Below, one piece after another: positions 4,301 to 22,174 of a DNA stretch of 22,174 nucleotides. The stretch is from a virus. The notes below the pieces were generated by a model, which did not search any database, was not told where the DNA came from, and saw only the letters and a program-made list of their open reading frames with translations. Each line of letters starts with the position of its first letter. The stretch's first letter is position 1. The stretch covers positions 1-22,174 of IMG/VR virus record IMGVR_UViG_3300035698_006668; one strand, written 5' to 3'. The position numbers and the translations under genes were made by a program.

Positions 4301-6355
4301 TTATAGTTCTGCGTCAGCTGTAATAAAGTCAGAACTATCATTCCAAATGTAAGGCCGACCTGTTGTAAGTCCTGTGTAATTGTTTAAATTTATACGGCCA
4401 CCGACTTCATTAATAGCCACTGTCCCTACACCCGCACTAGATTGATTTTTATCCAAGGCAAAAGCATCAGTTACGGTTATTTGTCCGGTGGACCCTATGG
4501 ATGGGGTGGCACGCATGGGAGGTGAGAATACCAGGGAGGCATCAAGTCGTGTTGTTGAAGCTGGTATCAAACTTTGACAAATCACCTTCTGGTAATACCT
4601 CTGACAAGCAGCAAGCTCACCAGCTACAGAGCCGCTATATCGTTCCCAAGGCGTTGCAGCGGAGTCTTTCTCCAACTTAACCTGAGTTAACAAAAAGTTA
4701 TTAGACGTACTATCTAGTCCGTTGACTTGGTTTGATGTGGTATAAGAAGCTGATGCATTCCAAGTGTCCGCCGTACCATTACTACTGGACCCACCAGCTA
4801 GAGCCCATCCTATGCGTAAACCAATCCCATTTGTCCTATTCCAGTTCCCCGCAGAGGAATCTATAGTGAGAGTTATTGTCTTTTTTTCCCACGTATTGGT
4901 TGTGTCGACTGTGTACTCAGAGGGGTATCCGTATCCTGCGTCGGAATTTTGTACAAACATAGTGAATATACCTGTCTTTGTAGATTTAACCCAGAAACTT
5001 ATAGTAATTTCTTGATTATCTATTTCCTGGAAGTTAAATCCCTCAAGCCTGGTTTGTAGAACATATAAGTCCCCAGCTGCTATAGAGGCATCCGCGGTAG
5101 TACAATCAACCTTCAGAGAGTAGCTACTACTATGACCGGATTCAGCTACTGTTGGAACGTCAGTATCTTGGGTTATAGTCACTTCGGCTGCCCCAGATTG
5201 GTCATAATAGTACCATCTATCTAATGTGTACGCACCAGTCGGGTTTACATGCGAAGCTCCACGTTGGGCAAAATCCATGCCCCCATTAATGATAAAGTTT
5301 TTTCGAACGAGAGCAGCACCTGCAACAGATGGAGTACCCCAAGTACATACCCCGGATCCGTTTGTTGATAAGTATTGTCCAGTTGATCCGTCTGCCGTTG
5401 GAAGTGTGTAGATTACATTACCCGCTAATGCTGGTGCCTTAAAGCCAGTATATGATGAGCCTCCACCTGAGGGCTCTCCCAAACGTAATTCCTGTTGATT
5501 GTCAATCAAAAGATCGCCAGTAACCGTTCCACCAACTAGGGGGAGTTTAGCATCTAATTGAGTTTGAATCGAACTGGTTACACCATTAACATATCCAATC
5601 TCGGTGGATGTGGTTGTGGCTGCGCTGGTAAATCCGGATCCATCGGACACAAGAGCCCGACTCGCGGTTGTTGACGCCAGTTTATTCAGGGCAATGGCAG
5701 CAGCAGCTTTGATATCAGCATTGACGACATTGGTTATGGTGTTGTTATCACTGTCAATATTTTTATTGGTAAGGGTGTCCGTGGTATCTCGTCCGACAAT
5801 GACGTCATCGCTATCTTGAACGGTAAGGGTACGGATCGTTCCTGTTGTTATACCGGAAGCTTCGAATCGGACCTCCTTCGTGGCATCGGCATTGTCCTGA
5901 ATACTGAATACAGCATCAGATACGTCGAACGTTGTTGGGCTATTAATTGCTGGACTGGTGAGTGTCTTATTGGTTAATGTATCTGTTGTGGCTCTCCCGA
6001 CAAGGGTATCATCACTGTCCTGAACAGTTAATGTTCGTATAGTGCCTGTGGTAATTCCACTGGCTTGAAACCTTACTTCCTTGGTGGCATCGCCGTTATC
6101 TTGGATACTGAAGACAGCATCAGATACGTCCAAGGTCGTTGGAGATGTAATGGCCGGGGATGTAAGAGTTTTATTGGTAAGGGTTTGAGTTGCAGTTTCG
6201 CTAACCAGTTCACTGGCTGCGGCATCTTCGTTGGGAAGGCTTATGACATTCCCTTGTGAATATGTAGTTGAGGCATTGGGTTTAACAGTAATATCGAAGT
6301 TACCAGCTTGAAATATTAACTGTGTTAGCTCTCGTAATTTACCAAGTACATCCAT
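4301..6355 (-). CDS. Fibre-like protein with duplicated repeat and C-terminal jelly-roll
   Basis: This 684-residue protein is probably a tail or head fibre that contacts the host surface. ATG at 6355 has AAGGA seven bases upstream. Residues 1-50 could be the virion attachment part. Residues 56-123 and 124-191 are two copies of a 68-residue repeat beginning TQTLTNKTLTSP / TDTLTNKTLTSP, typical of beta-structured fibre shafts. Residues about 350-560 start with NFIINGGMDFAQRGAS and contain TLDRWYYYDQSG and ITISFWVKSTKTG, a pattern of carbohydrate-binding jelly-roll domains in phage fibres. The end of that part (VKLEKDSAATPWERYSGSVA, then ELAACQRYYQKV) is a motif shared by many marine phage fibres. 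Receptor specificity cannot be read from the sequence. Confidence 0.8.
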   Translation of the reverse strand: MDVLGKLRELTQLIFQAGNFDITVKPNASTTYSQGNVISLPNEDAAASELVSETATQTLTNKTLTSPAITSPTTLDVSDAVFSIQDNGDATKEVRFQASGITTGTIRTLTVQDSDDTLVGRATTDTLTNKTLTSPAINSPTTFDVSDAVFSIQDNADATKEVRFEASGITTGTIRTLTVQDSDDVIVGRDTTDTLTNKNIDSDNNTITNVVNADIKAAAAIALNKLASTTASRALVSDGSGFTSAATTTSTEIGYVNGVTSSIQTQLDAKLPLVGGTVTGDLLIDNQQELRLGEPSGGGSSYTGFKAPALAGNVIYTLPTADGSTGQYLSTNGSGVCTWGTPSVAGAALVRKNFIINGGMDFAQRGASHVNPTGAYTLDRWYYYDQSGAAEVTITQDTDVPTVAESGHSSSYSLKVDCTTADASIAAGDLYVLQTRLEGFNFQEIDNQEITISFWVKSTKTGIFTMFVQNSDAGYGYPSEYTVDTTNTWEKKTITLTIDSSAGNWNRTNGIGLRIGWALAGGSSSNGTADTWNASASYTTSNQVNGLDSTSNNFLLTQVKLEKDSAATPWERYSGSVAGELAACQRYYQKVICQSLIPASTTRLDASLVFSPPMRATPSIGSTGQITVTDAFALDKNQSSAGVGTVAINEVGGRINLNNYTGLTTGRPYIWNDSSDFITADAEL
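5783..6190 (-). repeat. Two in-gene 204-bp repeats encoding a fibre shaft unit
   Basis: Copies at 6190-5987 and 5986-5783 encode 68 residues each and are directly adjacent. They differ at few residues (for example DNGDATKEVRFQ versus DNADATKEVRFE) but at many third codon positions, so they are an old duplication held by protein-level selection. A third, shorter start of the unit (TDTLTNKNIDSD) follows at residue 192. Confidence 0.85.
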
Positions 6356-9904: not shown

Positions 9905-11887
9905 CTATGCCATCGGAGCTACGCCTGGTGACTGTCCTGGGGCTACTTCGGGGGCTGGACCCGCTCCGCCAGCTGGACCTGGGGGATTTGCACCTGTGTT
10001 GGCCTCTTGTGCCGATGGAGCACCCAGTCCAGACGCCTTAAGTTGTTCTCGTTCCCGAATGTGGTGCTTAATAAGAGACTTAACGCGGTCTGTGAGGTCC
10101 CTAAACTCGGCACTCTCCAGATATTCGTATGAATAAGCCAACCGACCATTTTGGTCCTGCATCTCTTCAGGCGGAACATAAACATCACCCTCGCCTGCTA
10201 TCATCTCTTCGAATACCTCTTGCTGTCGTTCCCTAGCCCGGTCATTAATATCATATAAGCCATCAAGTTCATTCAATTTAAGCATCCGGACAATGGTCTT
10301 TCCATCAATGCCATACTTCTCGAAGACAGGCATGAGCTGCATGATCTCCTCGCGCCGACTTGTTGGATCGAGAGACAGGCTAGCACCATATTCAACGACA
10401 ATATCGAATCCACTGTCAACATCAGCACCACTTATCTCCATAGATTCAAATGCTTTTTCCTTTCCGAGTACGCTAATCACCTCGGGAATGCTCCAGTGTC
10501 TGCGGATTAGGTTCAGATAACTCTTGTATATAGATTCAACGAAGCCAACATACTTGTTAAACAGACGTCTACGTACCATATTACCTTGATTGGTGGCATA
10601 TTGCATACTGAAGCCAGATGTTTCTCGACTCTGCTCTCCAAACATGGATTCATTTACACCAGCCATACTATCAATACCAGCTGTTAATCGATCGCGAAGT
10701 GCGCTCATATCAGGCGGGGATTGTGGAGGTGAAACATAATGAGGTCCTTGATTACCAGTTACCTTGATGATATCCCGAGGAGAATCGGTAATACTGTCTT
10801 CTTGAATTTCACTACCTTCGGGGAGAACCATTCGGAAAGCACCAGCTGATTGAACGTTATCAAGTGTTAATGTGTCCAATCGATTCACAACATCCTGAAT
10901 CTCAACGTCATATTCGATAAAACTCTTTCCATATACCTGATCAGCCACATCAATGTCTGTAAGTATGTGGAATGGTAGTCGGGCAGTGGGAACAGTCCCT
11001 TTAGACTCTAATGTTTCCCGGAAACTGAACGGATTCTTGTGGATATCACCCACAAGAGAGCCATCTTCCACGAATTCAACGTATCGTCCAGCCATGCCAT
11101 TGATTGGCATGCCCTTTTCCCAATAACACAGGACACTTACCGGCTGATCTTCCAGTTGGTGGCGGTCTTTAAAGGAATGACGAACCTTGGCGCGACTATA
11201 TTTCTCGGATTGCTCCAGAATCTTCTTGGCATGACGAGGATAACTCATATGAGCCTCTTCTTTGGTCATCCACTTACGTTCAATCACATATCGAACATCA
11301 TCCCAACACTTGGCGAATGGATCAACATATACATCCCAGGTTGACGTAGCAACGATTTCGATATCGCCACTCATAGTTATCTCACCCGTTCGTTCATCCA
11401 GACTGTCCAGAATACCAGCATCGTTATTCCAAACGGTTTTCATCCACCCAGTACCATACAACAAGGTCTTGGCGGTAGCTTGATCTGTACGTTCTTGCAT
11501 CTTATAGCGACGAACAGCGTGGCGTACCAAACGATCAGCAGCATCTGCGCTACGTCGATCTCCAATATCGGAACTGGTCGGACGTACCACAACACTTGGG
11601 GGATTCGCACTCATCTGAGCATGGATGAATCGGTAATTCTTGAATGTATAGTTGACGCCAATGCTATCAGCATCCTCTACGTCAAGGAAGGAGGCCAGAT
11701 CATTGATATTAACACCGCCTTGATCCATTCCAGTGTCCGTTAGCATACCATCATGGTTATATATTGTAGCTTCATTCAATCGCCACTGACGTTCGAACTG
11801 TCTGCGGTAGTCGCCAGCATCATTATAAAGCTTCTTGAGTTGCTTCTTAGCATATATCTCTGACCACTGAAAGATTCTTAAAGACAT
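9905..11887 (-). CDS. Portal protein
   Basis: This 660-residue protein forms the DNA channel at one capsid vertex, on which the terminase docks. Signatures are the N-terminal helical part (residues 1-40), the segment TLLYGTGWMKTVWNNDAG near 141-158 followed by IEIVATSTWDVYVDPFAKCWDD, the ADQVYGKSFIEYDVEIQDVV helix and the long wing and clip parts, all typical of P22-type portals. Length is within the range for short-tailed phages. Residues about 595-660 are low-complexity Gly/Pro/Ala (NPPGPAGGAGPAPEVAPGQS), which makes the DNA there more GC-rich. ATG at 11887 has AAAGGG upstream and overlaps the end of the HNH gene by ten bases. Confidence 0.88.
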   Translation of the reverse strand: MSLRIFQWSEIYAKKQLKKLYNDAGDYRRQFERQWRLNEATIYNHDGMLTDTGMDQGGVNINDLASFLDVEDADSIGVNYTFKNYRFIHAQMSANPPSVVVRPTSSDIGDRRSADAADRLVRHAVRRYKMQERTDQATAKTLLYGTGWMKTVWNNDAGILDSLDERTGEITMSGDIEIVATSTWDVYVDPFAKCWDDVRYVIERKWMTKEEAHMSYPRHAKKILEQSEKYSRAKVRHSFKDRHQLEDQPVSVLCYWEKGMPINGMAGRYVEFVEDGSLVGDIHKNPFSFRETLESKGTVPTARLPFHILTDIDVADQVYGKSFIEYDVEIQDVVNRLDTLTLDNVQSAGAFRMVLPEGSEIQEDSITDSPRDIIKVTGNQGPHYVSPPQSPPDMSALRDRLTAGIDSMAGVNESMFGEQSRETSGFSMQYATNQGNMVRRRLFNKYVGFVESIYKSYLNLIRRHWSIPEVISVLGKEKAFESMEISGADVDSGFDIVVEYGASLSLDPTSRREEIMQLMPVFEKYGIDGKTIVRMLKLNELDGLYDINDRARERQQEVFEEMIAGEGDVYVPPEEMQDQNGRLAYSYEYLESAEFRDLTDRVKSLIKHHIREREQLKASGLGAPSAQEANTGANPPGPAGGAGPAPEVAPGQSPGVAPMA

Positions 11888-12366
11888 TTTGCACCCTTTC
11901 TAAGATTCTCGTCTGCTGATAAGATCTGGAGGTTATCGAATTTATGCTCTCCACCTTTACTTAAGGGGTATATATGATCGACATGAAACTTCTCACCACA
12001 AGAATTACTAAGAATCTTAGCCATTAAATATAATGAATTAATCAATCCCTTATTCTCCGTTATATTCGTTTTAGATCTACGTTTTGCTTCATATTGATTA
12101 CATAAATATTGATTATTTGACTTCCATTGAGCCTGAACTCTAGCACATCGATCTCTATTAGCCTCAATCCATGCCTTTTGGGAGGCTTTAATGGAGGCTG
12201 CGTTCTTCATTCTGGCTTTTCGTCCATGTTCTTTATAGAGTTCGGGCATTTCTAGTCTTCGATTCTTTACATAAGCGGACTGACAAGCCTTGCAATCTCT
12301 CCGTATACCATAAAAGGCATCCTCGGATTTCTCCTCACTACATTTTGTACATATCTTCAAACTCAT
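11878..12366 (-). CDS. HNH endonuclease (free-standing, probably a homing enzyme)
   Basis: This 162-residue protein has an N-terminal zinc knuckle with Cys6, Cys9, Cys25 and Cys28, a long Lys/Arg-rich helical middle, and a C-terminal HNH core: FHVDHIYPLSKGG at residues 127-139 (His128, Asp130, His131), then DNLQILSADENLRKG (Asn145, Asn154). It would cleave DNA, and such genes in phages usually spread themselves between related genomes. It is inserted between the small gene upstream (ATGA overlap) and the portal (ten-base overlap). All catalytic residues are present, so it looks intact. Its codons are more AT-rich than those of its neighbours, which fits recent arrival. A host-DNA or packaging role is possible but less likely. 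Confidence 0.88.
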   Translation of the reverse strand: MSLKICTKCSEEKSEDAFYGIRRDCKACQSAYVKNRRLEMPELYKEHGRKARMKNAASIKASQKAWIEANRDRCARVQAQWKSNNQYLCNQYEAKRRSKTNITENKGLINSLYLMAKILSNSCGEKFHVDHIYPLSKGGEHKFDNLQILSADENLRKGAKCL

Positions 12367-12659: not shown

Positions 12660-12919
12660 CTCTATTTCCTTTCATAAGATTTTCCACAGCGGGAATCACT
12701 TGAAGATTAAGTGGGCAGTGTAGTCCACTTTCTTTCTTTGTTGTTCTGTCGCCAGATTTTCCCCATTTTACTGGATCTATCTTTATTTACTTGATAATAA
12801 TTAGCACTATTTAATTTTGTACAAGGTTTACAATGGGCTCGATACCCACAATCAATTCTTGAATCAGCAAAAAATTCATTAAAGGGTTTATTTTCTTTAC
12901 AGGTATTACAGGATTTCAA
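12652..12919 (-). pseudogene. Decayed HNH endonuclease: head and tail kept, catalytic core lost
   Basis: A 70-codon frame starts with TTG at 12919 (AGGA seven bases upstream; TTGA overlap with the gene before). It encodes a zinc knuckle with Cys4, Cys7, Cys30 and Cys33 (SCNTCKENKPFNEFFADS) and a basic helix, and stops at 12707. Shifted by one base, the DNA continues as SGLHCPLNLQVIPAVENLMK then GNRVG and a stop at 12652. That is the characteristic end of HNH endonucleases (NLQ...ENL.KG). The part with the His-Asp-His core is absent, so an internal deletion plus a frame change explains it. The knuckle fragment may still be translated. Confidence 0.75.
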
Positions 12920-13041: not shown

Positions 13042-14610
13042 TTAAATCCCCACGTTACTGCGCAGTCGCTTGCCATTTATGACAGCACCACGTTTTCGTT
13101 TGACTCTGCTATCAAAAGCTCGGCCCCACTTCTTTGATTGCTTCTTTTTATTCTCAGTTTCTTCACGAGCTACCTTCATTATACTTGCATCTCGACTTAA
13201 CACAACAATTTCCTTGGGCTTATTGGGGAAGTTATCCACCAGATATTGAAGCGCATCAAGGATATGATACTTGGTACTACGTCGGATACCAGTTCCGTCA
13301 CTGGTCCACTCTGCATCATTCATTTCACTGAATAGATCGAACAATTTTTCACCAAATTGAAGCCATCCATCTCTCATTGCCTGCTGTACATTGGTGATTA
13401 GCTCAAGTTTTCGTTGGCTTTTATTGTAAACACCCATGTAGGTGATACCTTGCTTGACTGCTTCCTTCATAAATCCAGCTTCATGTGGATCATATATACG
13501 TCGAACGATGTTATATGGTCTGATCATACGCTCAACTTCCTCGACAAGATCACTTGGGGCCTTGCCTGGAATATATTGTGCTCGTACTATCCACCAAAAA
13601 CCATTAGCAGGATCGCGTGCCGCCAATATAAAGCCAGCTTTACCACTAGCAGCAGGGTCTGTTGCCACCACATGAGGCCATAATGGACTATATGTTGGAG
13701 GTAATTGTTTAACGTGGAGTGTTTTTTCGAGATGAAAGACCTTGTCTTCTGCCCCTTGCCATGCACCTTCAAGGATTGTCATCTGTTCTTCGAGGCTAAG
13801 ATGATTAATCTTGGCTCGTTCTTCTTCTTCACGTCCCCAATAGATTGGATTGTCAAGCTTTCCCATCTGATATTTGATACCGATGGATGGATCTACGTTG
13901 TCAACCATTGCCCGGACTCGTTCGTTCCGACTCTTTGGTGTGAATGTAGCAAGGAATTGGGCTCTACGACTATCACAACGACGATGAAGTTCCTCGATGT
14001 ACTTATAATCACCCGGCATTTCATCCAACCAGACGAAGTGAGCGACATAGGATTGAACCTTTTCGGCCGCTTCCTTTGCTTTATCATGTGATGTGAAGAT
14101 GATAGTGTTACCATTATCACGATTCACAACTTCCTTTATGACTCCACCTTGCTTCTTTGGATTATTATAACTGGATTTAGGCAGGTATGGTTTGATCTTT
14201 GTGTTCCACAGCTTATCGAGTTGGTCGGTTGTACGACCAGCCACAATAATAAGAAGAGGCTCATCAGACCAATCAACCCATCGGTGTTCACATACACCGC
14301 AGGTAAAGTTCTCTCCGGTCTTTGTTATTAGGGTACTGTCACACACGTTGCATGAGTGGGCATTGGGACGTTTCCAATATGGATCACTCTCAAGGAACAT
14401 CCACGCCGTACGTCTTGCACCAATGGTGGATTTGCCACTCTGGTTACCAGCAACAACATAGATGTGCAGATGCTCCCTATCTATAAGAGGAGGGAGTTGC
14501 TTTGGACTAGCTGTACTTTCAACCTTATATGGATCAAAACACAAATTCCTGCGTATAGCATCTCGTTTAGCTAGAGCAGCGGCAAGTAATTTTTTATTGT
14601 CTTTAATCAA
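13042..14610 (-). CDS. terL: Terminase large subunit
   Basis: This 522-residue motor packages DNA into the prohead and cuts the concatemer. The ATPase domain has Walker A GNQSGKST (residues 55-62), Walker B VWLDE (193-197, Asp196 and Glu197) and coupling motif ATFTP (221-225). The C-terminal RNase H-type nuclease has Asp318 (VVATDPAASGKAG), Asp374 (IYDPHEAG) and Asp452 (YHILDALQYLVDN). Between Walker A and B sits a four-cysteine zinc ribbon (Cys87, 90, 104, 107), not present in most terminases. The start is TTG at 14610; an in-frame TAA lies directly before it and the next Met is past Walker A. The basic C-terminus (KRKRGAVINGKRLRS) may contact DNA or portal. Confidence 0.95.
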   Translation of the reverse strand: MIKDNKKLLAAALAKRDAIRRNLCFDPYKVESTASPKQLPPLIDREHLHIYVVAGNQSGKSTIGARRTAWMFLESDPYWKRPNAHSCNVCDSTLITKTGENFTCGVCEHRWVDWSDEPLLIIVAGRTTDQLDKLWNTKIKPYLPKSSYNNPKKQGGVIKEVVNRDNGNTIIFTSHDKAKEAAEKVQSYVAHFVWLDEMPGDYKYIEELHRRCDSRRAQFLATFTPKSRNERVRAMVDNVDPSIGIKYQMGKLDNPIYWGREEEERAKINHLSLEEQMTILEGAWQGAEDKVFHLEKTLHVKQLPPTYSPLWPHVVATDPAASGKAGFILAARDPANGFWWIVRAQYIPGKAPSDLVEEVERMIRPYNIVRRIYDPHEAGFMKEAVKQGITYMGVYNKSQRKLELITNVQQAMRDGWLQFGEKLFDLFSEMNDAEWTSDGTGIRRSTKYHILDALQYLVDNFPNKPKEIVVLSRDASIMKVAREETENKKKQSKKWGRAFDSRVKRKRGAVINGKRLRSNVGI

Positions 14611-18817: not shown

Positions 18818-18894
18818 CTGATACCCCCTTTATAAATTTCCAGGTAGTTCCGACTACCTGGCTTCAACGATATCTTTATTCGTCCTGCTTGCAT
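18814..18894 (-). CDS. 26-residue basic microprotein between protease and structural genes
   Basis: A 26-codon frame starts in a TAATG overlap with the protease stop and ends in an ATGA overlap with the next gene, so it fills the gap exactly. GGAG lies ten bases before the ATG. It reads MQAGRIKISLKPGSRNYLE and then a short Lys/Gly/Arg end. Its charge is strongly positive. A nine-base inverted repeat lies inside it. I know no family; its precise coupling on both sides is the evidence that it is real. Confidence 0.6.
   Translation of the reverse strand: MQAGRIKISLKPGSRNYLEIYKGGIR
18840..18861. other. Nine-base-pair hairpin inside the microprotein gene
   Basis: CCAGGTAGT, a four-base TCCG loop and ACTACCTGG form a perfect stem. 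On the minus strand it ends 22 bases before the start codon of the 68-residue protein and 11 bases before its Shine-Dalgarno. No U-run follows. It may reduce or couple translation of the downstream gene. Confidence 0.5.
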
Positions 18895-19505
18895 TAGGGG
18901 GGTTCTCCAATAATTGAATCTATTAAACCTAGATCGTATGCTTCATCAGCATTAATAAACCAATCAAAACTCATCTTGTTATGTAGGGTGGCTGCTGTCA
19001 TCTTTTTCTTTACATTAATTCGGTCCAGAAATATAGATGCAAATTGCTTATCCCACTTCTTTGCTTCGTCCATTACCCGATAGCTGTCCTGAGAGTGTTG
19101 ATTAACCTGTGCATTTGCCGTTCCGTAATGAAGCATGATCCTACTATGAGGAGCCATCTTACGTTCATCAGCGGCCTGAAGTATGATGGATCCCATTGAC
19201 ATGGCGTGTCCATATACCTCAATAATAACATGACTGTTACATGCTTGTATCTTATCATAGATAGCCATACCGTGATATTCACAGCCGCCTACGTTATTCA
19301 TAATGATCGTTAATGGAACTTCCGGCTTGATCCTATCCAGCATATGAAGTCCCTTGATAGTCTTCTCGGCCATTGAATAGTCAACTCCAAGTTCATTACC
19401 TTCAGAGTCTGCGGAGGCACTTCCCATATAAAGAGTCTTTGATTTGAAGTCAATTCCATAAACAAAGAACATACTGGATGAATTAAATTCATTTTCAATA
19501 CTCAT
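18894..19505 (-). CDS. ClpP-type serine protease, probable prohead protease
   Basis: This 203-residue protein has the ClpP (peptidase S14) triad: Ser103 in HAMSMGSIILQAADER, His126 in SRIMLHYG and Asp181 in FDWFINADEAYDLGLIDSII, the last matching the conserved DRFLSA...GLVDSI region of ClpP. The MNNVGGCEYHGMAIYD segment at 69-84 matches the substrate-binding loop (the N-[SP]-PGG type). In phages, such proteases mature the capsid. Unusually it lies far from portal, scaffold and coat genes. ATG at 19505 is in an ATGA overlap with the gene before. Action on the host or on another phage protein is also possible. Confidence 0.88.
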   Translation of the reverse strand: MSIENEFNSSSMFFVYGIDFKSKTLYMGSASADSEGNELGVDYSMAEKTIKGLHMLDRIKPEVPLTIIMNNVGGCEYHGMAIYDKIQACNSHVIIEVYGHAMSMGSIILQAADERKMAPHSRIMLHYGTANAQVNQHSQDSYRVMDEAKKWDKQFASIFLDRINVKKKMTAATLHNKMSFDWFINADEAYDLGLIDSIIGEPP

Positions 19506-20023
19506 ATCTTGCCACCGGCCTTCTCAATATATAGATCCAATGCTGCAATGTCATCTGGTATAGTATCATCAAGGAATTTAATCTCTGTCTTTTGTTTCTT
19601 TATCTTGCCTGCTATCTCGATCAATAGCTTGGCTGCTGCGAGTCTGTCGCCATCCTTCTCAGCTGTATACAGTATATCACCCACAATGCCCAGAGCGGCG
19701 CTAGCCAGAGCCTCGGCTTGATTCTCGAATGACATGACATCAAGGAACCAACTCTTGAAACCAGGAACAGACCACCATTTCTCGATGACGGATCTTCCGG
19801 TCAGCTGAACTGCGAATGCTGCTGTGATTGTCTTTGGGGTAGGGCCACCAGATAACATGGCATGAAACTCAGATTTCAGTTGACGCTGATCCAAGGTAGG
19901 CTTATATATATTAGCGGCTTCGATTATTTCTTTCACAACTTTGCTATCCGTCTTTGTTATTTTCACCTTGTCACCAATCTGTCCCCAATGGAGGTCCAAT
20001 TTAAGGTGTGGACCAGGCACCAT
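19502..20023 (-). CDS. Possible small terminase subunit or DNA-binding protein, 173 residues
   Basis: This protein is mostly helical. The part LTGRSVIEKWWSVPGFKSWF (residues 74-93) followed by EALASAALGIVGDILYTAEK and GDRLAAAKLLIEIAGKIKKQ resembles the end of small-terminase-type proteins, where a helix-turn-helix is followed by an oligomerisation helix and 'AAKLLIE.AGK'. The N-terminal strand-rich part (LDLHWGQIGDKVKITKTDSK) is unlike the family. The position before protease and virion genes fits. ATG at 20023 is 15 bases from GAGGAG, a long spacing, so the start is not certain; GTG follows it directly. The assignment is tentative. Confidence 0.5.
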   Translation of the reverse strand: MVPGPHLKLDLHWGQIGDKVKITKTDSKVVKEIIEAANIYKPTLDQRQLKSEFHAMLSGGPTPKTITAAFAVQLTGRSVIEKWWSVPGFKSWFLDVMSFENQAEALASAALGIVGDILYTAEKDGDRLAAAKLLIEIAGKIKKQKTEIKFLDDTIPDDIAALDLYIEKAGGKI

Positions 20024-20050: not shown

Positions 20051-20464
20051 TTAACGATCTCGTTTTGCTTCGTCTGCGAACTGTCTGAATTGTGCCTTGA
20101 TCCTGGCCTTGTGCCACTCTTGCTTGGCTATCTTGAACTCCTCGGGTGTCATATATTGTCGAAGATCGTTGATAACATTCTCGTCTGCTTGGTTGAATTC
20201 ACCAGCATCAATATGTGTCGGAGGCTGACCTCCTTCGGCTATTGCCCTCCGCTTTAACAGCTTCTCGTGCAATGAGTCAGGTACGTCGGAGTGACTTGGG
20301 GGAATATAGTCTCGGGATTGCTCGGGGCTTACGGCCTCTCGGAGCTGTTGGAGGATGTCTGGCTTGCTTGCTTTGATACTATCATCAACGCCAGGTCCCA
20401 CACGAGGCTTCTTGGCTGTGATTAGATCGACCAGGGTCTTTCCTATCTTGCTGTATACACTCAT
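20051..20464 (-). CDS. Hypothetical 137-residue protein
   Basis: ATG at 20464 is in an ATGA overlap with the winged-helix gene before. The protein is charged and mostly helical with a proline-rich centre (EQSRDYIPPSHSDVPDSLHE), and ends in a basic helix (EEFKIAKQEWHKARIKAQFR). No membrane segment or known motif is seen. Its position between a winged-helix protein and a possible small terminase suggests a role in control or packaging, without direct evidence. Confidence 0.65.
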   Translation of the reverse strand: MSVYSKIGKTLVDLITAKKPRVGPGVDDSIKASKPDILQQLREAVSPEQSRDYIPPSHSDVPDSLHEKLLKRRAIAEGGQPPTHIDAGEFNQADENVINDLRQYMTPEEFKIAKQEWHKARIKAQFRQFADEAKRDR

Positions 20465-20808
20465 ATGTTAAGTTCTCTTCGTTTATGCCACTCAGGCTGC
20501 ACCAAGTGCAACGTAGCGTCCTTGCGGCCAAGGGTTAGCCTAGATATGATACCGAAGCTTTGCATCCAACTGAAAGTTTCACAGAGCCTCACAGGACGTA
20601 CATGGAGTTTGCGTGCTAGTTTGCTGATATCAACAGTTATCAATCCATTATCGCGTTGGATATGCTCGTTTCCATAGAACAACTCCAAAATAAGCCGTCC
20701 TGCACTTGGTCTATATCTAGGGCTACTCATGTTTAGGCTGGCCTCATGGTATTTTTCGCCACCTGAGTTACCTAGGATCCTCGACATCACGTACATAGCG
20801 TCGATCAT
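20461..20808 (-). CDS. Winged-helix DNA-binding protein
   Basis: This 115-residue protein is the first gene after the control region. Residues about 37-103 form a winged helix: helix GRLILELFYG, strand LITVD, then HTH ISKLARKLHVRPVRLCETFS and recognition end WMQSFGIISRL with a wing to about 103. It could regulate the promoters and repeats upstream. The start is uncertain: ATG at 20808 lacks a clear Shine-Dalgarno, and the domain itself could begin at Met27 (20730). Residues 2-21 (IDAMYVMSRILGNSGGEKYH) resemble part of the HNH gene, see findings. Confidence 0.65.
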   Translation of the reverse strand: MIDAMYVMSRILGNSGGEKYHEASLNMSSPRYRPSAGRLILELFYGNEHIQRDNGLITVDISKLARKLHVRPVRLCETFSWMQSFGIISRLTLGRKDATLHLVQPEWHKRRELNI

Positions 20809-20884: not shown

Positions 20885-20913
20885 ATGATAGCATAGTTTG
20901 CTTCAAATGTCAA
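20885..20913 (-). promoter_or_regulatory. Sigma-70 promoter P4
   Basis: On the minus strand TTGACA (20913-20908), 17 bp, TATCAT (20890-20885), preceded by CCC. The leader to the ATG at 20808 is about 70 bases. It is the nearest promoter to the winged-helix gene. Confidence 0.75.
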
Positions 20914-20989: not shown

Positions 20990-21032
20990 GTTTAACTCGG
21001 TAACATTACTTCGTAACGTTAATTCGTTAAAC
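20990..21032. repeat. Nested inverted repeat at the P5 start site
   Basis: Outer arms GTTTAAC (20990-20996) and GTTAAAC (21026-21032) enclose an inner hairpin: TAACATTAC (21001-21009), loop TTC, GTAACGTTA (21013-21021), with one mismatch in nine pairs. The predicted P5 start site is about six bases beyond its right end, so the first bases of the transcript fold into it. It includes one TTAACTCG half-site of the 14-bp repeat. Confidence 0.55.
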
Positions 21033-21041
21033 TATAAATAT

Positions 21042-21070
21042 AGAATATCATATTTTACATCAAAAGTCAA
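21042..21070 (-). promoter_or_regulatory. Sigma-70 promoter P5
   Basis: On the minus strand TTGACT (21070-21065), 17 bp, TATTCT (21047-21042), preceded by CC. It lies upstream of P4 and the palindromes and drives the same genes. Confidence 0.7.
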
Positions 21071-21168
21071 GGACTAAATTGATATATATTGTAATTAGAT
21101 CGAGTTAAGGAGAGTATTTCGTGGATGTACCTTCGTTTCACACCCGTACCATACAGGTTTTCACGGCA

Positions 21169-21234
21169 GATATCATTATATTACGTGGATTTACGTCTGT
21201 CTAGATATACTTATCCTCCCAATATAATGATATC
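21169..21234. repeat. Perfect 14-bp inverted repeat with 38-base spacer
   Basis: GATATCATTATATT (21169-21182) and AATATAATGATATC (21221-21234) are exact reverse complements. The spacer contains TTACGTGGA and TTTACGTCTG half-repeats. It could be a protein-binding pair or fold in RNA; it is not followed by a U-run. Confidence 0.55.
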
Positions 21235-21249
21235 CACCTCGATTCAAGA

Positions 21250-21281
21250 GTTGGCATTGGGTTATATGATCCATTGCCAAC
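21250..21281. repeat. Hairpin element 1 of the GGCATTG family
   Basis: GTTGGCATTGG and CCATTGCCAAC surround a ten-base spacer and pair at 10 of 11 positions, the T-T mismatch being central. A conserved mismatch occurs at the same place in elements 2 and 3. Confidence 0.6.
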
Positions 21282-21470
21282 ATCAGTACCGGAAATAGCC
21301 CCCGAGTGTGATATGGAGTTAATCATTTATACACACACCCCCAAACCCCACTTACCCCTCCAATTAAACGCCCGTATGGGAAGGTAACTTTATCGATATT
21401 ATATCCGGGGTATCCTCATCGTAGTAAGGAGAGATCGGCCGAGTATCAACACGTCGCGTAATGTGGCAAT

Positions 21471-21498
21471 GGCATTGCATCGAGATATACACACTGCC
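21471..21498. repeat. Hairpin element 2 of the GGCATTG family
   Basis: GGCATTG (21471-21477), 14 bases, CACTGCC (21492-21498) pair with one central mismatch. A GGCAATG copy lies directly upstream at 21465. The spacer CATCGAGATATACA matches that of element 3 at 10 of 14 bases. Confidence 0.55.
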
Positions 21499-21568
21499 AA
21501 CTCAATCACACTCCAATAAGTGAGCCTCAAGGCGAACGGACAAGGGCAGTCCCCTCTATACTAAGGTT

Positions 21569-21596
21569 GGCATTGCATCCATATATCCACATTGCC
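21569..21596. repeat. Hairpin element 3 of the GGCATTG family
   Basis: GGCATTG (21569-21575), 14 bases (CATCCATATATCCA), CATTGCC (21590-21596). The left arm is preceded by GTT as in element 1. Two further single arms GTTGGCAATGG lie at 21738-21748 and 21999-22009 without right arms. Confidence 0.55.
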
Positions 21597-21606
21597 CCCT
21601 TTCTCC

Positions 21607-21732
21607 TTAACTCGACCTACTTAACTCGATCTACTTAACTCGATCGAGTTAACTCGACCTACTTAACTCGACCTACTTAACTCGATCGAGTTAACTCGAC
21701 CTACTTAACTCGACCTACTTAACTCGATCGAG
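21607..21732. repeat. Nine-copy 14-bp iteron-like array with A-A-B order
   Basis: Nine direct 14-bp units start at 21607. Unit A is TTAACTCGACCTAC (the second copy has one change, T for C), unit B is TTAACTCGATCGAG. The order is A A B A A B A A B, so three 42-bp blocks. Each B followed by the next TTAA makes the palindrome TTAACTCGATCGAGTTAA (complete at the first two B units; the third continues TTAG). Isolated copies of the same half-site occur at about 20992 and in reverse orientation near 21099-21108 and 21757. Iterons of this kind bind replication or partition proteins in plasmids and phages; that role here is inference. Confidence 0.85.
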
Positions 21733-21794
21733 TTAGAGTTGGCAATGGTGTATGTATCGAGTTAGACTATCTACTCGGCCTTACCTATACTGAT

Positions 21795-21823
21795 ATTATA
21801 TCAATACACTCATATATTGTCAA
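21795..21823 (-). promoter_or_regulatory. Perfect-consensus sigma-70 promoter P6
   Basis: On the minus strand TTGACA (21823-21818), 17 bp, TATAAT (21800-21795), preceded by CCC: an exact consensus. Transcription would start near 21788 and run into the GTTGGCAATGG arm, the 14-bp repeat array and the hairpin elements before reaching P5 and the first gene about 980 bases away. Confidence 0.8.
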
Positions 21824-21929
21824 GGGAATAATGAAACTACTGGATATTAAAGGAATATATTATAACTAACAATGGAATCAACCGTATCATCGACGTAGCC
21901 TACCGCACATGGATACCACCCCGATATTT

Positions 21930-21947
21930 TGATCATTAATTTGATCA
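21930..21947. repeat. Pair of TTTGATCATT sites
   Basis: TGATCA palindromes at 21930-21935 and 21942-21947 are in an AT-rich stretch, 12 bases apart, each inside TTTGATCATT. Two sites on nearly the same helical face could bind a regulator. Confidence 0.3.
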
Positions 21948-22041
21948 TTTTAAAGGAATTTGTTTAAGATAGCAAGGGATTCGCTCGGCGGCGGGGAGGT
22001 TGGCAATGGCATCGTATCTCACTCTCAATCACGTGGTATAT

Positions 22042-22110: not shown

Positions 22111-22112
22111 TT

Positions 22113-22174
22113 CACTCCCCGGATCACTCCCCGGATCACTCCCCGGATCACTCCCCGGATCACTCCCCGGATCA
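22113..22174. repeat. 12-bp tandem repeat at the window edge
   Basis: CACTCCCCGGAT occurs five times without change from 22113 to 22172 and a sixth copy starts (CA) at the end of the window. The window stops inside the array, so its full length is unknown and assembly may have broken here. Confidence 0.9.

Follow-up and report, generated by a model that had tools for sequence, protein, structure and literature searches.

A short non-coding stretch of a virus genome holds nine consecutive copies of a 14-bp unit arranged with unusual symmetry, and the question is what such an array does at the head of a late operon. The DNA analysed here (the window) is a 22,174-base IMG/VR virus record of the class linear. 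The structural genes identified in it are all on the minus strand. The genes needed below are the following:

9905-11887, minus strand: portal
13042-14610, minus strand: TerL
18894-19505, minus strand: ClpP-like protease
19502-20023: p3, putative small terminase subunit, assigned by eye
about 20461-20730, minus strand: p1, predicted winged-helix protein of 89 amino acids, first late gene, with the start taken from the alignment with relatives

To the right of this minus-strand late operon, a non-coding region of about 1.4 kb runs from ~20731 to the contig end and contains the array. An Endonuclease VII/HNH-like gene (11878-12366) and a related short zinc-finger-like ORF (12707-12919) lie between the terminase and portal genes, and their products are possibly homing endonucleases.

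The array consists of the following parts:

21607-21736, unstranded: whole array, A-A-B three times, nine 14-bp units in a 42-bp super-repeat
21635-21652, unstranded: palindrome 1, perfect, 18 bp, TTAACTCGATCGAGTTAA
21677-21694, unstranded: palindrome 2, perfect, 18 bp, one period of 42 bp or 4.0 turns after palindrome 1
21719-21736, unstranded: palindrome 3, ending in TTAG, with one arm mismatch (8/9 arm pairs)

The nine units occupy 21607-21732, start at 21607+14n (n = 0 to 8) and follow the order A A' B / A A B / A A B, where A is TTAACTCGACCTAC, A' is TTAACTCGATCTAC and B is TTAACTCGATCGAG. Unit A', at 21621, differs from A by one base and had not been listed in the original prediction. 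TRF reported 8.7 copies with 88% matches at the period of 14 bp and 3.1 copies with 98% matches at the period of 42 bp. Together with the unit alignment, the latter value confirmed the strictly periodic array of nine 14-bp units with a 42-bp A-A-B super-repeat that had been predicted. Since the 14-bp step puts TAA in every frame, the array is non-coding.

The 9-bp half-site TTAACTCGA (columns 1-9) was identical in 9/9 units, and the three variable columns (10, 12 and 14) all fell within the 5-bp spacer (chance 0.027). Compared with A, unit B has exactly three bases changed, which give the spacer TCGAG, turn it together with the next TTAA into a reverse half-site and so complete the 18-bp palindrome at every third unit. 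The expectation that the last palindrome would be incomplete was borne out, as two are perfect and the third is not. While the units do end at the predicted position 21732, the TTAG at which palindrome 3 ends carries its arm beyond it, to 21735/21736. The 18-bp windows placed at unit starts formed graded palindromes with 6/9 (A), 7/9 (A') and 9/9 (B) arm pairs, adjacent windows sharing the TTAA overlap. The array contains 12 half-sites in both orientations, and the 18-mer TTAACTCGATCGAGTTAA with up to 3 mismatches had 10 matches in the window vs 0.02 in shuffles.

The 42-bp period corresponds to 4.0 helical turns at 10.5 bp/turn, with each 14-bp step turning by 120 degrees. This phasing is arithmetic; its importance is something that we infer. 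Given three B among nine units, the probability of the strict period three was 0.036, and the A-A-B order is explicable without function because block duplication would give it. The restriction of the variation to the spacer and the exact completion of the palindromes make the half-site and the palindrome look selected, whereas the A-A-B order by itself may be a historical accident. We conclude that this cis element is real and highly regular and that it probably binds protein; from its sequence, its use as a platform on which a DNA-binding protein docks seems almost certain. The general kind of element is familiar and the mixed symmetry is unusual; in the literature searched, we found no array with such a mixture of palindromes and direct half-sites.

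The relatives of the phage were identified by the alignment of TerL, which showed 75–76% identity for contigs L003, L004 and L009, 44% for L010-L013 and 34–43% for more distant contigs. The 66-kb relative G008 has its late operon in one direction, from about 3040, and its early genes (for DNA polymerase A, a helicase, the Sak annealing protein and a resolvase) in the other, about 1.4 kb apart. The late/early layout of G016 is the same. By analogy, the region in the window would be a divergent control region, its own early genes lying outside the contig.

The array and the half-site were absent from the control regions of G008, G010, G016 and G012. The period, for which conservation in relatives had been proposed as a check, is therefore not kept in these phages, while the closest relatives do not reach the region: L003 and L004 end before it, and L009 covers only 431 bp upstream of p1. 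This 431-bp stretch contains no TAACTCGA site, the position homologous to the array being outside it. As the array is missing in all relatives with a readable control region, it is, as far as these sequences extend, lineage-specific, with the closest relatives stopping short of the spot. Neither the region nor the array had a match in phage or plasmid records, the unit pair and the palindrome had none in other IMG/VR contigs, and scans with p1, p3 and the protease yielded no further relative spanning the region. No prophage relative was found either: the absence of a related TerL among 84,980 bacterial and archaeal genomes suggests a lytic life, and the phage is probably lytic.

Several repeats elsewhere were considered as counterparts of the array and rejected. 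The 15-bp arrays of L010-L013 and G008, which share a TCRAGTTA core, are pentapeptide-repeat genes, that is, open frames with A(N/D)LxG repeats. G008 (L025, L022) has at least two genes for pentapeptide-repeat proteins (61118-61819, 65544-66005 and 1-181), one of them partly duplicated at both contig ends. Three copies of GCGTAACTAG in G016 were not significant as an equivalent site (36/500 shuffles). The Herbinix contig L039 carries, at 5029-5098 and adjoining an amidase gene, five tandem copies of the 14-bp repeat TTAACTCGATATAC with the same 9-mer and period. This was judged a coincidence because the collection is large (257-Gb) and the context unrelated.

Isolated half-sites and predicted promoters of the control region are located as follows:

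20992-21000, plus strand: half-site TTAACTCGG, about 35-43 bp downstream of the predicted PC start
21092-21113, minus strand: exact half-site with flank, an inverted copy of the left edge of the array (20/22 bp)
21314-21322, minus strand: half-site TTAACTCCA, 8/9 match
21757-21765, minus strand: half-site CTAACTCGA, 8/9 match, 23-31 bp downstream of the predicted PA start
21795-21823, minus strand: PA, predicted sigma70 promoter, TTGACA-17-TATAAT (12/12), oriented towards the late genes and the array
21175-21203, minus strand: PB, predicted promoter, TAGACA-17-TATAAT, enclosed by an inverted repeat of 22 bp (21169-21234)
21042-21070, minus strand: PC, predicted promoter, TTGACT-17-TATTCT
20885-20913, minus strand: PD, predicted promoter, TTGACA-17-TATCAT, immediately upstream of p1, the first late gene
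21251-22008, unstranded: second motif TTGGCA(A/T)TG, in dyads or single sites at 21251-21280, 21463-21500, 21567-21597, 21739 and 22000

With at most one mismatch, four isolated half-sites were found in the remaining 1.24 kb of intergenic DNA vs five in the 20.8 kb of coding DNA, so that the rate outside the array was 3.2/kb in the intergenic region vs 0.24/kb in the rest of the window. The five one-mismatch copies in coding DNA are background. At the coding rate, about 0.3 isolated intergenic half-sites would be expected instead of the 4 observed (Poisson about 2e-4, calculated by hand), which supports a sequence-specific binder. The predicted copies at 20992 and 21100-21108 were recovered, whereas those at 21757 and 21314 had been overlooked. 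The copy at 20992 falls in an inverted repeat near PC (21070-21042). The exact half-site at 21100-21108 is situated 60-68 bp downstream of the predicted PB start and 30 bp upstream of the PC -35.

Three of the four isolated half-sites sit 23-68 bp downstream of the predicted late-facing sigma70 promoters PA, PB and PC, and the array itself lies 52-181 bp downstream of PA, the nearest and strongest late-facing promoter predicted. As in a phage operator cluster, repeated dyad sites are thus found near promoters, 23-181 bp downstream of the predicted PA, PB and PC starts. The promoter scan yielded 12 predicted sigma70-like sites vs 5.0 expected, and the perfect consensus at 21823-21795 is among the four best that face the late genes. 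In the window, L009, G008 and G016, late-facing promoters agree with the sigma70 consensus at 11-12 of 12 positions, and each of these three relatives has a predicted 12/12 consensus promoter upstream of the late operon. Such near-consensus sites suggest that the late genes are transcribed from host-type promoters, which would have to be restrained.

Other elements were also seen in the control region. The 22-bp inverted repeat (86%) around predicted PB could extrude as a cruciform. Copies of TTGGCA(A/T)TG occur on both flanks of the array, some as dyads of about 30 bp, and are likely sites of a second protein. A perfect 12-bp tandem repeat, TCACTCCCCGGA, forms a second repeat array at 22112-22174 (5.2 copies), where it runs off the contig end and is probably the point at which the assembly stopped. 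Control through Dam and GATC was considered and rejected: GATC was dense in the two arrays but at background level elsewhere in the region. The sequence ACACCCCC(A/C)A, preceded by a TTA-like sequence, was present once per control region (window 21327-21345; G008, L022 2316; G016, L033 17614) and is possibly a conserved element.

The gene next to the control region encodes p1, whose start was shifted to 20730 after alignment with its relatives. The AlphaFold2 model of p1 (pLDDT 78, pTM 0.66) has the element order of a winged helix. In the VIA-align comparison, its best match was CAP with a Z of 8.7 (rmsd 1.8 over 64 residues), a value at the upper end of those given by common folds. Many winged-helix proteins were matched and no single family stood out; a family missing from this list is not thereby excluded. 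In L009 and G016, the first late gene codes for a relative of p1, and in G008 a relative is encoded at the late-operon head. The L009 protein is 56% identical and has a similar putative recognition helix, and the G016 relative in the same position was aligned by hhalign with a probability of 96.6 (E 5e-10). At most a doubtful relative (13–17% identity) is encoded at the late-operon head of G012 and its close kin G014. Sigma-factor-like proteins are likewise encoded near the late-operon head of G012 (L030 3264-3821, minus strand) and G014 (L031 670-1236). The G012 protein matches PHROG 1740 (E 2e-13), its gene being next after the possible p1 relative. The p1 relatives and this sigma-like gene indicate that regulators occupy the late-operon head in this phage group. 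A gene for a putative DNA-binding regulator, with its function deduced from the predicted fold, is thus located near the array, and p1 is, on the model, the best candidate for its binder. The missing TAACTCGA site near the L009 p1 counts against this assignment, and the array may just as well be bound by the product of an early gene that lies past the contig end.

The best reading of the array is that of an operator or silencer controlling the late promoters, to which we assign a probability of roughly 0.45; it was ranked first because it needs the fewest unseen parts. The array would be a cis-acting multi-site operator at the late-operon head of a probably lytic phage. A phage DNA-binding protein would occupy the 9-bp half-site as a monomer and the 18-bp palindromes as a pair. 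The original prediction had likewise proposed one protein that binds half-sites and dimerises at the palindromes, and this would agree with a 9-mer that never varies, palindromes that are exact and half-sites that are dispersed. Lying four helical turns apart on one DNA face, the three palindromes could nucleate three dimers, while the pair of direct half-sites in each interval, turned by about 120 and 240 degrees, would be filled cooperatively. The resulting compact nucleoprotein complex, 52-181 bp downstream of PA, may restrain leftward late transcription early in infection, as a repressor or roadblock, until its occupancy changes. Through the isolated half-sites that closely follow them, PA, PB and PC would be linked to the protein that binds the array, and if p1 is this binder, its position as the first late gene would create a feedback loop.

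The operator reading is consistent with the constant half-site and the spacer-only variation that completes a reverse half-site in B, the spacing of 4.0 turns, the excess of isolated half-sites downstream of predicted promoters, the consensus late-facing promoters that would need restraint in the window and three relatives, and the predicted winged helix of p1 with relatives at the late-operon head. Against it stand the 431 bp upstream of a 56%-identical p1 without TAACTCGA, the four control regions without array or half-site, the position of the array downstream of the nearest promoter and not at its -35/-10, and the equal claim of an early protein. A more elaborate form, in which palindrome dimers on one face and monomers at the 120-degree half-sites build a superhelical winged-helix complex that times late genes transcribed from host-type promoters, is speculative and quite unlikely.

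The main rival, less probable, is a replication origin, with the units serving as iterons of a phage initiator and helicase being loaded by it onto AT-rich DNA close by, in the interval that separates the late from the early operon. The nine units do provide several direct repeats of a presumed binding site, and with their internal dyads they resemble the lambda O iterons, which are 19-bp imperfect inverted repeats adjoining an AT-rich tract (PMC7466680). The control region also includes TTATACACA at 21327, which is the sole strict DnaA box in the window, as well as the stretch richest in AT (82% near 21027-21097), and the cumulative GC-skew minimum of G008, G010 and G016 falls at the corresponding divergent region. 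However, the DnaA box (280 bp away) and the AT-rich stretch (about 500 bp away) are neither adjacent to the array nor conserved in relatives, the skew is confounded by gene orientation, and an origin layout would be expected to persist, whereas the relatives have neither a tandem array nor a strict DnaA box there. No initiator of the Rep_3 type was found in the window or relatives, the early part of the genome lying outside the contig. A neutral or selfish higher-order repeat, in which slippage produced a 14-bp triplet and 42-bp blocks were then amplified with no protein involved, is unlikely. It would account for the greater likeness of the 42-bp copies than of the 14-bp units (98% vs 88%), as expected of recent block amplification, and it agrees with the 12-bp repeat at the contig end, the absence of the array from relatives and the L039 repeat, which shows that coincidences occur in a 257-Gb collection. 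It does not account for a half-site that never varies, for palindromes that are completed exactly or for the four single half-sites close to promoters.

In known phages, the terminase small subunit recognises repeated DNA sites, and the gene for p3 lies 1.6 kb from the array, upstream of TerL and in one operon with it. A pac- or cos-like packaging site for this subunit is nevertheless very unlikely, as the array is far from the p3 gene, relatives have no related array, the isolated half-sites follow promoters and the p3 assignment has no support from any family library. Still less probable is a centromere-like partition site of an extrachromosomal prophage. The layout of 42-bp repeats with an 18-bp palindrome recalls the tandem palindromic repeats of sopC of F, with twelve 43-bp repeats each containing a 16-bp inverted repeat (PMC9178275), as well as the parS of mycobacteriophage RedRock, with eight direct 8-bp repeats (PMC7157519). 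Searches that worked on controls found no ParA (PF13614), ParB (PF02195), integrase (PF00589) or HTH_3 repressor (PF01381) in the window, itself an incomplete genome, or in five related records, one of 66 kb, and the bacterial and archaeal genomes held no relative. With these proteins and Rep_3 missing from the relatives, partition or lysogeny appears unlikely. The chances are just as slim for an RNA element, a long hairpin in the leftward PA transcript acting as an attenuator or processing signal. For the leftward RNA of 21585-21790, the folding energy was -75.7 kcal/mol vs -45.2 in shuffles, and the hairpin is closed by flanking CCAUUGCC/GGCAAUG sequences, but the strong folding follows from the units being palindromic repeats: any such tandem array folds so, as do the other strand and the DNA. 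Moreover, the half-sites lie in both orientations relative to transcription, and the Rfam search of the region gave nothing at the gathering score, the weak miRNA-precursor matches being hairpin look-alikes. Among the roles originally offered, silencing or transcription control fits best in view of the promoters and the adjacent conserved gene for a predicted winged helix, an origin comes next, and the case for partition suffers from the lack of any ParA or ParB in the window and the five related phage records.

The proposed operator shares features with several known systems. Like the lambda origin, it has repeated sites with internal dyads in a phage control region, on which a multi-protein complex is built in lambda and is proposed here. 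The lambda sites, however, are 19-bp inverted repeats inside gene O with an adjoining AT-rich tract and the O initiator, whereas the window array is intergenic, with 14-bp units, a perfect palindrome at every third one, no adjacent AT-rich tract and no known initiator. Its 42-bp super-repeat with one dimer palindrome each is close to the 43-bp repeat of sopC and the parS arrays of phages and plasmids, but there are three repeats instead of the twelve of sopC, extra direct half-sites between the palindromes and no ParA/ParB found. In BldC operators (PMC5859096), a small winged-helix protein occupies 9-bp direct repeats head to tail in variable number, as proposed for p1; the BldC sites, AATTXXXX(C), are contiguous and without palindromes, and we saw no family relation of p1 to BldC. 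Mycobacteriophage stoperators (PMC9283540) are also asymmetric sites downstream of promoters at which a phage protein could stop transcription. They are spread genome-wide in temperate phages and bound by the immunity repressor, unlike the 12 array and 4 isolated half-sites of the window, which are confined to one region, partly palindromic and in both orientations instead of one.

How phages restrain late genes that are transcribed from host sigma70-type promoters is poorly known beyond a few models. The region described here is a compact, testable candidate for such control, as it combines one array and several predicted promoters with a single small protein that is conserved and predicted to bind DNA. 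Should the helical phasing prove important, it would provide a simple route from one half-site to a higher-order repressor complex.
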